Origin: Streptomyces sp. ML-6
GTDB taxonomy: Bacteria; Actinomycetota; Actinomycetes; Streptomycetales; Streptomycetaceae
Length of the DNA: 64,000 nt
NCBI RefSeq assembly: GCF_030116705.1
Contig: NZ_JAOTIK010000001.1
Span: forward strand, 3,068,001 to 3,132,000
Reading direction: 5' to 3'
Below the pieces are notes generated by a model that saw nothing but the letters and a program-made list of their open reading frames with translations, was not told the origin of the DNA and did no database searches. Positions 17,532-20,125 of the stretch are shown piece after piece (the stretch's first letter is position 1; each line of letters starts with the position of its first letter). The translations under genes and the position numbers were made by a program.

Positions 17532-18314
17532 TCAACCACCCCATGCGACAAGGTCGTTGCCGGTCCAGTGCTTGACTTCGCTGTCGACCCCGTCGTAACT
17601 GCCGGAGTCGGCGGTGGCCGCCACCGCGTAGTCATCCGCGGCCGGATCCAGGGACTGCACACCGCACTGCTCGTCCCGGCCCGGGACGAGGGACAGTTCG
17701 CAGCTGTGTCTGCTCCCGATGACCGGCTTGTCGACACTCTGATCCGCTCCTTTGTCGAAGCGGTACAGCCAGTAGTGAATGGTGATCTTCTGGGCGCGCT
17801 TCACCTGGACCCTGACGGTGTACTGAAGGGTGCCGTCGGCGGCGCGGAAACAGGGCCGCAGCCCGTAACCGTACGAGGTCGGGTACTTGAAACCGGCTTC
17901 CTTGCACATCCATTCGCCGACCGGCGAGATCCTGGCCTTCCCTTCCTTGGAAGGGGTGGTCCTGGGCGACGGATCGGCGGGCGGAGGATCGGCGGAGGGC
18001 GGATCGGGCGGTGTGGCCGACTTCTTGGAGGACGGCGACGCCGATACCGAGGGCGTGGGGGCGTACGAGCCCGAAGGCGCGCCGGCGAACGGGGACCGGT
18101 GCTCGTTGCCGCGCCCCACGAAGTCCCGCAGCAGCACACCGCCCGCCACGGCCACCACCGCGGTGGCCGCGACGACCACGACCGCGCCCAGGACGACGCC
18201 ACGACGCCGGCGAGGGGGCGGCGGGGGATTGATGATGTTCCCGAACTGCGTGACGTTCGAGACGCCTCCGCTGCCCGCGATGTTGCGCTGGGACGACGGC
18301 TCCTCCACGCTCAC
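17532..18314 (-). CDS. Single-pass membrane protein with N-terminal amyloid-like motif and external Cys-rich domain
   Basis: 260 aa, GTG at 18314. Residues 11-27 read NIAGSGGVSNVTQFGNI and closely match the C-terminus of the protein encoded just upstream. Then come PPPPP, RRRR and a transmembrane helix at about 40-62; the positive-inside rule puts the N-terminal motif in the cytoplasm. A Ser/Pro/Asp linker (about 65-125) leads to an external domain (about 126-260) with four cysteines (in EWMC, LRPC, RHSC, DEQC) that could form two disulfides. The start overlaps the upstream stop by 4 nt (GTGA). Layout suggests an extracytoplasmic sensor signalling to its partner through a shared motif (inference). 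I do not recognise the external domain. Confidence 0.85.
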   Translation of the reverse strand: MSVEEPSSQRNIAGSGGVSNVTQFGNIINPPPPPRRRRGVVLGAVVVVAATAVVAVAGGVLLRDFVGRGNEHRSPFAGAPSGSYAPTPSVSASPSSKKSATPPDPPSADPPPADPSPRTTPSKEGKARISPVGEWMCKEAGFKYPTSYGYGLRPCFRAADGTLQYTVRVQVKRAQKITIHYWLYRFDKGADQSVDKPVIGSRHSCELSLVPGRDEQCGVQSLDPAADDYAVAATADSGSYDGVDSEVKHWTGNDLVAWGG

Positions 18315-18760
18315 GGACGCGCCGCCCCGCCATCGCCGACATGGATGTCACCGTGCTGGCTGATGTACTGGACCCCACCGCTCTGCGCGATGTTGGTCTG
18401 CCCCGACGACTGCGGGCCCGCGGGCAGCTGCGCCTGCACGTGACGGATCAGGGCGGCAAACTCCTGCGCCGCTTCGGGATTGGCCGCGAGCAGAACACCC
18501 AACCGGCTGGCCCAGAGACCTTCGAGCTGCCGTCGCACCTCGTCGCGGTCGGCCGGCGGAAGCCCCTCGATCTCCGCCGCGGTGTCGTCGAGCCGGTTCC
18601 GGAGCTGCAGGCCGCGCTCCTCGTCGCCCTCGCCCCCGCCCTCGCCTCTCCCGAACAACCGCATGAAGCCGGTCCGCACCGTCTGCCACACGTCGGTCGA
18701 TGCGGCGTTGACCAATGCCGCGGCGCCTAACGCCGCCAGCTCCCCCGCTTCTCCCAGCAC
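18311..18760 (-). CDS. Small helical cytoplasmic protein with C-terminal amyloid-like motif
   Basis: 149 aa. GTG at 18760 follows AGGGGAG by 5 nt and marks the point where the frame becomes protein-like. The N-terminal half (ELAALGAAALVNAASTDVWQ, then MRLFGRGEGGGEG) matches a helical domain I have seen often in Streptomyces proteins that end in a Gly/Gln/Asn motif. Residues 40-110 are mostly helical and charged. Residues 123-139 read NIAQSGGVQYISQHGDI. The same motif opens the next protein, with 10 of 17 positions identical and three conservative. It is probably the effector or adaptor half of the pair. Confidence 0.82.
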   Translation of the reverse strand: MLGEAGELAALGAAALVNAASTDVWQTVRTGFMRLFGRGEGGGEGDEERGLQLRNRLDDTAAEIEGLPPADRDEVRRQLEGLWASRLGVLLAANPEAAQEFAALIRHVQAQLPAGPQSSGQTNIAQSGGVQYISQHGDIHVGDGGAARP

Positions 18761-18797
18761 TGCGTCTCCCCTTCTCCCGGGCTGCGCTCCGAACAAA

Positions 18798-18851
18798 ACC
18801 TGCAAGACCTGCAAAACCTGCAAGACCTGCAAGACCTGCAAGACCTGCAAG
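18798..18851. repeat. 9-bp iteron-like tandem repeat (6 copies)
   Basis: Six contiguous copies of ACCTGCAAG (the second reads ACCTGCAAA), 38-91 bp upstream of the GTG at 18760 and inside the divergent region shared with the DUF5753 gene at 19018. They are non-coding, and the location fits a multi-site operator or 5' leader element. Confidence 0.85.
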
Positions 18852-19017
18852 AAAAATAGCGTTCCTGAACCGTCTCCGCCCCACGTTGTCCGGCCGTCCC
18901 GAGAAGCCGTACACCTTCCGTTGCGCCTTGTGACGAAATCCTCACGCACTGCCACACGGATCCCTACCTTGAAAGGGTTTCCCGCCTCACGACGCACGGC
19001 ACGAAAGGTGGTCAACG

Positions 19018-19896
19018 GTGGCTACGCGCAAGGAGATCGACGGCTCGGCAGGCGTACCCCAGTTCTACGGCAAGGAACTCCGCTACCAACGGGAGAAAGC
19101 CGGAATGACCCTGGAGAAACTGGCAGAAGGCAGCTTCTACGGCATCACGCTCCTCAGCGAGATCGAGCACGGCAACCGCAGCATGCCGCCGGACCTGGCC
19201 CAGCACGCCGACCGGGTACTCGGCACGGACGGCTACTTCGCACGCGGCTGCGACGACGTACGGAAGGCCAAGCGCAAGGGCCACGCGGAATACTTCGAGC
19301 GCGTGCTGGATGCCGAGAAGCGCGCCGAGACCATCGAGGAGTGGTCACCGGGCGTCTTCCCCGGCCTGCTCCAGACAGAGGCGTACGCACGGGCCCTGTT
19401 CCATGCCGAGCGGATCCTGGAGCTCCCGGAGGAGATCGACGAAAAGGTCAACGGACGCCTGGCGCGGGCACAACTCTTCGAAGCCGATCACCGGACCCCG
19501 CAGTACTGGGCGATCCTTCCCGAATCCCTGCTGCGCCTGCCGATCCTGCCACCGCAGCAGATGGCCGAGCAGCTGGACCACATCGCCGCCCTCATCAGGA
19601 GGGGCCGGATCTTCACGCAGATCCTCCCGTGGAACGCGGGAGCGCACGCCCTGATGCTGAGCAACGCCATGGTGCTGGACTTCGCGGACGCTCCCCCGCT
19701 GGTCTACATGGAGGGCCAGCACCACGGGAATACCGTCGACGATCCGGCCCTCGTGAAGCAGTACCGGAGGTCGTACGATCTCCTGAGGGCCGCCGCCTCG
19801 CCGCCGGGGGTGTCCCTCACCATGATCGAGGAAGCGGCAGAGGACTACCGAAATGGTCTGCAGCCAGTTCGACTTGAGCGCCGTCACATGGCGTAG
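19018..19896 (+). CDS. XRE-family regulator with DUF5753 (WhiJ-like)
   Basis: 292 aa, GTG at 19018 behind GAAAGG. N-terminal XRE HTH (LRYQREKAGMTLEKLAEGSF, then LLSEIEHGNRSMPPDLA), followed by the ~190-residue DUF5753 (YFERVLDAEKRAETIEEWSP, PGLLQTEAYARAL, MVLDFADAPPLVYME, then a terminal GVSLTMIEEAAEDYR). Such proteins are nearly always encoded with a small DUF397 protein, as here (overlap at 19853), and WhiJ of S. coelicolor is the studied member. It is divergent from the amyloid-motif pair. Confidence 0.93.
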   Translation: MATRKEIDGSAGVPQFYGKELRYQREKAGMTLEKLAEGSFYGITLLSEIEHGNRSMPPDLAQHADRVLGTDGYFARGCDDVRKAKRKGHAEYFERVLDAEKRAETIEEWSPGVFPGLLQTEAYARALFHAERILELPEEIDEKVNGRLARAQLFEADHRTPQYWAILPESLLRLPILPPQQMAEQLDHIAALIRRGRIFTQILPWNAGAHALMLSNAMVLDFADAPPLVYMEGQHHGNTVDDPALVKQYRRSYDLLRAAASPPGVSLTMIEEAAEDYRNGLQPVRLERRHMA

Positions 19897-20125
19897 GAGC
19901 AGCCACAGCAACACCTCCGGCGGCAACTGCCTCGAAGTCGCGGAGGAGTTCGCCCACTGGCGCAAGAGCAGCCACAGCAACACCTCCGGCGGCGACTGCC
20001 TCGAAGTCGCGGACGGTCACCCCGGCATCGTCCCCGTCCGCGACTCCAAGCGTCCCGAGGGTCCGGTGCTCGTCGTGAACGCGTCCGCGTGGACGCCGTT
20101 CATCGAGTCCGTCAAGGCGCCCTGA
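19853..20125 (+). CDS. DUF397 small protein with internally duplicated N-terminal half
   Basis: 90 aa, ATG at 19853 inside the 3' end of the DUF5753 gene. DUF397 normally has one motif W(R/K)KSSxSxxxGxCxEVA followed by a VRDSK strand and a final W-xxFxxxVK. Here the first part occurs twice (WRRSSHSNTSGGNCLEVA and WRKSSHSNTSGGDCLEVA), then VRDSKRPEGPVL and AWTPFIESVKA. The duplication is nearly exact in DNA. DUF397 proteins act as partners or antagonists of the adjacent DUF5753 regulator. Confidence 0.92.
   Translation: MVCSQFDLSAVTWRRSSHSNTSGGNCLEVAEEFAHWRKSSHSNTSGGDCLEVADGHPGIVPVRDSKRPEGPVLVVNASAWTPFIESVKAP
19889..20013 (+). repeat. 56-bp direct repeat at 69-bp spacing within the DUF397 gene
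   Basis: 19889-19944 and 19958-20013 match except for about three positions. The 69-bp offset (23 codons) keeps the frame and duplicates the conserved SSHSNTSGG(N/D)CLEVA segment. Confidence 0.9.

Follow-up and report, generated by a model that had tools for sequence, protein, structure and literature searches.

Bacterial amyloid signalosomes, in which Bell effectors are paired with NLR proteins through BASS motifs, were reportedly defined by Dyrka et al. in J Mol Biol in 2020. As described in passages of PMC7889193, PMC8086366, PMC12261475, and PMC9815663, these Bell/BASS systems occur in filamentous Actinobacteria, comprise several motif families, and combine a small helical effector, which has a hydrophobic first helix and a C-terminal motif, with an adjacent or overlapping gene bearing the matching N-terminal motif. 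The fungal NWD2/HET-S and PNT1/HELLP systems also consist of two adjacent genes with an N-terminal motif in the receptor and a C-terminal motif in the effector, whose membrane-targeting helical domain is activated by templating, and their receptor is a cytosolic NLR (passages of PMC7889193 and PMC7885112). Lectin-type sensors joined to death-type modules are known from multicellular bacteria in lectin-fold conflict systems with NPCBM or FGS domains, but these are described as intracellular invader sensors found via Death-like domains, and the passages of PMC8195603 that present them mention no membrane receptor with an amyloid motif. Passages of the 2021 review PMC7889193 name NLR-independent signalling amyloids in fungi and bacteria as a key open question and past searches as biased to NLR/executor architectures. 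Bacterial membrane receptors that carry amyloid motifs were not described in any of the literature matches listed (titles, abstract starts, and passages including PMC12881547), and a mention in J Mol Biol 2020 or in preprints is possible.

The window, i.e., the whole stretch of 64,000 nucleotides that was analysed, carries a pair of overlapping genes with a C-terminal motif in the first product and a matching N-terminal motif in the second, as in Bell/BASS pairs. Unlike in those pairs, the second gene is predicted to encode a single-pass membrane protein of 260 aa without P-loop or NLR domains, and its motif was not placed in BASS1-10, for which one BASS3 peptide was compared. The closest analogue in working, with no homology claimed, is the Drosophila PGRP-LC / Imd system, whose receptor PGRP-LC has type II topology. 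In passages of PMC9496462 and PMC7885112, PGRP-LC is a membrane receptor with a cytosolic amyloid motif (cRHIM) that binds a cell-wall polymer, and its aggregation is thought to recruit and nucleate the matching motif in a downstream protein. In contrast to the scheme proposed for the pair described here, the ligand of PGRP-LC is DAP-type peptidoglycan and its output is NF-kB signalling instead of a membrane-acting effector. For the window protein, a layout of the PGRP-LC type may be indicated by a topology predicted as N-in and an ectodomain predicted as a beta-sandwich, and lectins occur in relatives only. We assign a probability of about 60% to the reading that the two genes form an NLR-free amyloid signalling unit of a membrane receptor and a Bell-like effector.

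Layout and predicted domains of the gene pair

All features of the pair lie on the minus strand. The upstream gene, encoding the Bell-like effector (18311..18760), runs from GTG at 18760 to TGA at 18311 and specifies 149 aa, which form a five-helix domain followed by a motif-bearing tail. The downstream gene for the receptor-like protein (17532..18314) starts with GTG at 18314 and stops at 17532. The 4-nt overlap that the sequence-only reading had proposed was found as GTGA at 18311..18314, and GC3 is 0.85 in both genes. The DUF5753/DUF397 locus, which was named as a neighbour, has real Pfam matches, but its link to the pair is unsupported: the genes run divergently, and no support for their regulating the pair was found at the locus. 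The DUF5753 gene overlaps at its end with the DUF397 gene, whose product (19853-20125, plus strand) is internally duplicated (HSNTSGGNCLEVAEEF / HSNTSGGDCLEVADG). A 9-bp tandem repeat (CAAGACCTG, 6.6 copies, 94% matches) at 18794-18852 starts 34 nt upstream of the effector start codon, where changes in copy number might alter expression.

The helical effector domain (residues 4-111, 18428..18751) was recognised by its homology to effectors coupled to P-loop genes of the NLR type with matching motifs and by its helical AF2 model. Helices were predicted at residues 4-19, 25-36, 44-65, 69-93, and 97-111 with a mean pLDDT of 75, while the tail has a pLDDT below 50 and two short strands at 122-124 and 130-132. 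Comparison of the effector model with solved structures gave no convincing match and none that indicates the effector's action. The effector was named Bell-like by its anatomy, which combines a small helical domain, a hydrophobic first helix, and a C-terminal motif with a coupled gene downstream that carries the corresponding motif at its N-terminus. Relatives of the effector occur in 36 of 61 genomes of the relatives set, in 101 of 150 genomes of the genus and 82 of 119 genomes of the order, and at class level in 37 of 246 genomes (12 of 103 genera), these genome sets overlapping one another.

That the partner is a single-pass membrane protein with a four-Cys external domain stands as a prediction, with one hydrophobic helix and all four Cys beyond it. 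The predicted transmembrane helix (residues 39-57, 18144..18200), assigned by hydropathy and charge, is preceded by 38 residues ending in RRRR, and the net charge is +4 before it and 0 after it, from which an N-in, C-out topology is predicted. A Ser/Thr/Pro/Ala/Gly-rich linker follows (residues 63-126, 17937..18128), which is predicted to lie outside and was recognised by composition (0.67 of the 60 residues after the helix are S, T, P, A, or G) and low AF2 confidence. The four-Cys ectodomain comprises residues 127-260 (17535..17936; Cys 137, 155, 205, and 217). In the AF2 model, built on a 4-sequence alignment, it has strands at 150-159, 162-171, 175-186, 198-209, and 228-234, with block means of pLDDT from 53 to 88 over residues 151-240 and values below 50 in the first 130 residues. 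The solved structures matching the ectodomain model are generic beta-sandwiches, and the window ectodomain is predicted to have this fold.

A long signal peptide or an inverted topology would place the motif outside the cytosol, so that the two proteins would meet there, e.g., as adhesins or where cells touch. Long n-regions are known in signal peptides, and L067, a related membrane partner, has flanking charges that do not speak for N-in. The 38 residues with RRRR ahead of the helix, the charge difference across it, and the position of all Cys after it speak against this arrangement, as does the presence of the same motif slot on P-loop proteins in relatives, and we regard it as very improbable.

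For the receptor, nothing in Pfam matched at E <= 5, and no NCBIfam model came near its cut-off. A search that depends on shared 5-residue words, run on 5.8 billion proteins (clustered at 90%), found three relatives beyond the window's own cluster, i.e., four clusters in all. Of 295 genomes of the genus, the window's own is the one that has the window-type ectodomain.

Motif match, conservation, and kinship

The effector-side motif NIAQSGGVQYISQHGDI occupies residues 123-139 (18344..18394), and the receptor-side motif NIAGSGGVSNVTQFGNI, which is predicted to be cytosolic, occupies residues 11-27 (18234..18284). The similarity claimed for them, ten identical positions out of 17 plus three conservative ones, was confirmed on recount, and this identity was reached in 0 of 3,000 shuffles. 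The Smith-Waterman score was 53 across 19 residues, and when the first 60 residues of the partner were shuffled 20,000 times, no shuffle reached it. The receptor motif lies at the N-terminus as proposed, beginning after the first ten residues, while the effector motif, which had been placed at the C-terminus, is near it but not at the very end, with 10 residues beyond.

Orthologous pairs were identified in Streptomyces sp. NPDC087218 (P0003/P0008, locus tags 32790/32795) and Streptomyces sp. NPDC001732 (P0004/P0009, locus tags 20980/20985), adjacency being deduced in both from consecutive locus tags. Both motifs are kept near-invariant in the two pairs, the effector side in P0003 and P0004 and the receptor side in P0008 and P0009, while the linkers have diverged. 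NPDC001732 carries the same Ser to Asn change in both motifs (NIAQNGG and NVAGNGG), which as a single matched change is weak evidence alone. The conservation and co-variation that the sequence-only reading had called for were thereby observed as two retained motifs and this one change. In a further receptor ortholog, P0010 (alignment identity 44%), the corresponding position holds RNSASSGGTQYITHAGNI, the same kind of motif, and the basic stretch ahead of the transmembrane helix is kept.

At the DNA level, the two motifs agree in 36 of 51 nt and are separated by 59 nt (18344 to 18284), and the origin of the motifs may therefore lie in an old tandem duplication. As a full explanation, with the motif pair a functionless by-product of duplication or a chance resemblance, this is hardly credible: the motifs are kept in orthologs whose linkers diverge, they share a matched change, and the arrangement is seen again in pairs with other kinds of motif and with partners that are unrelated.

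The relation to described amyloid motifs was assessed next to two references. RHIM and PP motifs share the core G-(I,V)-Q-(I,V)-G in passages of PMC7885112; this core is absent from the window motifs, which read GGVQYISQHG and GGVSNVTQFG. The second reference was one published BASS3 peptide. The effector-side BASS3 peptide of Frankia ORT49035.1 gave FTIR and Congo red signs of amyloid (passages of PMC8086366), and a GFP-BASS3 fusion formed foci (passages of PMC9815663). Compared with this peptide, the window motif is not detectably BASS3, as 183 of 5,000 shuffles reach the effector-side score and 2,011 of 5,000 the receptor-side score. Of 108 effector tails, the one that came closest to the BASS3 peptide was that of L158, whose effector is coupled to a transmembrane partner (score 60; 11 of 13 aligned residues), and this partner itself scored 45 (8 of 12 residues), each score being reached in 0 of 5,000 shuffles. 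For other membrane-coupled pairs, the shuffles of 5,000 reaching the effector and receptor scores were 0 and 1 (L011), 3 and 16 (L239), 690 and 1,101 (L222), and 1,384 and 1,651 (L048).

The missing RHIM core and the lack of detectable BASS3 likeness in the window motif would fit specific recognition of a non-amyloid kind, in which the effector would be drawn to a clustered receptor through a folded interface, either a heterotypic beta-arch or a dimer. Against it, the motifs occupy the same slot and arrangement as BASS motifs, for which the amyloid signs and foci cited above from parts of PMC8086366 and PMC9815663 are described, and the motifs of L158 and L011 closely resemble the BASS3 peptide. 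We consider such recognition improbable.

Partners across the effector family

Effector loci were surveyed from among the matches listed, with 275 loci as input: 30 from the relatives set, 30 plus 100 from the genus, 25 new plus 60 from the order, and 30 from the class. Places with internal stops, several with long open frames, the remainder of the order list, and unlisted matches were left out. Since genomes contribute more than one locus and many loci are closely related, the survey counts are not independent; L232 is the same as L271, and L254 overlaps L092. The 275 loci yielded 253 unique effector domains, and the best-matching downstream ORF within 200 nt was taken as the partner. Partners were classed by regular expressions for P-loops and a hydropathy window, which are not curated domain calls.

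A motif-matching downstream partner was found for 108 of the 253 effector domains, among the listed matches. These partners comprised 76 with a P-loop (STAND/NLR type), 11 long proteins without the P-loop pattern, 14 short proteins with an early transmembrane segment, 4 proteins with later transmembrane segments, and 3 other short proteins. Six of the 11 long partners outside the pattern carry APSGAGKS or APSGTGKS by eye. NLR-type partners, taken as the P-loop and long classes together, accounted for 87 of 108 and show by anatomy the published Bell/BASS arrangement. The remaining effectors had a downstream ORF without a matching motif (113), no ORF of at least 120 aa (22), or were fused (10).

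Because these classes had picked partners by motif score, the test was repeated with a motif-blind choice based on distance (-25 to +60 nt), length, and GC3, which gave 162 pairs and left 80 effectors without such an ORF. NLR-type partners (k = 108) had a mean cognate score of 50.5 against 28.3 when permuted, with 78 scoring at least 36, and single-transmembrane partners (k = 14) had a mean of 56.0 against 27.7, with 12 of 14 scoring at least 36; neither mean was reached in 20,000 permutations (0 in each case). L088 and L254 were the single-transmembrane misses, and among the 12 that match, L271 looks multi-pass by eye. Other transmembrane arrangements (k = 6) scored 61.3 against 40.2 (22 of 20,000). 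The control class "other" (k = 34), mostly with no visible motif, scored 26.2 against 21.8 (0 of 20,000; 7 of 34 at least 36), exceeding its permutations partly because it includes some NLR-like and soluble partners. The window pair scored 43, since the domain model had shortened the effector tail, and 7 of 161 foreign N-termini outscored the true partner. The proposed architecture of an effector and a receptor joined by a shared motif holds and recurs, with 12 of 14 motif-blind single-transmembrane partners matching their own effector.

Membrane-spanning partners and the proposed signalling unit

The single-transmembrane matching partners numbered 12 (L001, which is the window, L011, L048, L067, L086, L149, L158, L160, L201, L222, L239, and L260), a count that omits L133 and L271 from the 14 short early-transmembrane partners. 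These predicted membrane-spanning neighbours come from the window genome and eleven other surveyed genomes of three actinobacterial families: ten belong to family f1, among them the window, whose named relatives are Streptomyces, and L222 and L260 belong to f3 and f19, respectively. L024, also of f3, was set apart by its motif score of 22. Its transmembrane protein shares 34% identity with that of L201 (3e-50), and the two genomes belong to different families. The effectors of L024 and L201 form a sister pair (support 91), and the two halves seem to co-vary by eye, with QIN in both L024 motifs and MTV in both L201 motifs.

Pfam assigned ricin-type lectin ectodomains to L158 (5.4e-13), L011 (6.2e-19), and L222 (1.6e-9), and a tectonin ectodomain to L086 (1.8e-7; 31.3 bits against a cut-off of 30), which is separated from its effector by a 110-nt gap. 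L160 showed a sub-threshold TIG trace (0.023), and the Pfam search of L048, L067, L149, L201, L239, L260, and L024 found nothing above the cut-off. By eye, the motifs were sorted into QYIS/QYIT (window and L048), GPTAVQ-like (L011, L158, L222, and L239), RVYQAGRDQ-like (L067, L149, L160, L201, and L260), and GGVxHxPVIQ (L086) types. The net charge was higher before the helix in 9 of 10 single-transmembrane proteins (eight of the 12 plus P0008 and P0009), the exceptions in topology being the charges of L067 and a single Cys on the N side in L086. On a tree of 100 effector domains (83 with NLR-type and 17 with transmembrane partners, multi-pass ones and L024 included), the transmembrane label requires 13 changes, at least 4 of them forced by well-supported branches. 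This tree was built on few columns and leaves 49 of its 97 inner branches open. The label is somewhat clustered, with 8 of 500 shuffles as low.

The coupling, the motif match and its conservation, the effector family, and the recurrence that enter the reading of the pair as a signalling unit are observed, and the topology and folds are predicted. Ligand sensing, amyloid templating, and membrane killing we infer by analogy with NLR pairs. The 260-aa receptor would hold its motif inside the cell, cross the membrane with one helix, and expose a beta-sandwich sensor outside. Binding of an external ligand would cluster the receptor, and since relatives carry lectin ectodomains, analogy suggests glycans or cell-surface polymers as ligands. 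The clustered N-terminal motifs would form a cross-beta nucleus, which would template the matching C-terminal motif of the 149-aa effector, and the helical domain of this effector, whose first helix is hydrophobic, would go on to enter the membrane, whereby the cell or hyphal compartment would be killed or arrested.

The same anatomy and gene overlap would be expected of a membrane protein that acts as an anchor or inhibitor, its motif pairing keeping the effector inactive at the membrane in a toxin-immunity-like manner, with its loss rather than a ligand releasing the effector. Several partners without an obvious sensor would suit this role, namely L133 with two hydrophobic segments, L232/L271, which are multi-pass by eye, and L106, L118, and L231 with C-terminal transmembrane segments. 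However, the 87 NLR-type proteins among the 108 motif-matching partners belong to a class known as sensors, and the ricin-type lectin and tectonin ectodomains fit sensing, which makes an anchor or inhibitor unlikely.

Returning to the signalling unit, the survey supports a recurrent architecture for the window pair; its amyloid formation, signalling, and role in cell death we infer. In filamentous soil bacteria, genes whose small helical products resemble cell-death effectors often adjoin a sensor-like gene with the same amyloid-like motif, and the membrane-spanning neighbours suggest that amyloid signalling can begin outside the cell. Chances are about even that bacteria possess a class of membrane-spanning amyloid receptors, in which diverse external sensors, among them ricin-type lectin, tectonin, and a four-Cys beta-sandwich, are joined by one helix to a cytosolic motif that directly triggers a Bell-type killer, and in which a modular slot has switched several times between NLR and membrane sensor. 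Such receptors would be a bacterial counterpart of surface pattern-recognition receptors, working by prion-like templating without an NTPase. The membrane-partner pairs are direct, testable candidates for NLR-independent amyloid signalling. If the signalling reading is true, amyloid templating carries a signal across the bacterial membrane without an NTPase switch and ties surface sensing to a cell-death module in multicellular bacteria, a design with a parallel in insect PGRP-LC. The relatives that bear lectins offer a practical way to search for ligands.

Further effector loci were seen in the window's genome and beyond. The window's genome carries a second effector pair, L133 (G000:C1:5108841), with the effector tail QVFQAGRDQKI and a small partner that has two predicted membrane segments and begins QVHQAGRDQHF, as well as an effector coupled to a P-loop gene with a matching motif (L145, G000:C1:3178350) and an effector for which no partner passed the filter (L064, G000:C1:3648088). 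Tandem effector domains lie side by side in the same genomes at L005, L007, L009, L016, and L019, where no motif-matching partner was found downstream. The partners of L106, L118, and L231 combine an N-terminal RVYQAGRDQ-like motif with a long charged region, which looks coiled-coil by eye, and C-terminal membrane segments. L235 and L256 have soluble partners (422 and 463 aa, respectively) with a matching motif, no P-loop, and apparently helical repeats by eye, which are possibly a further receptor type.
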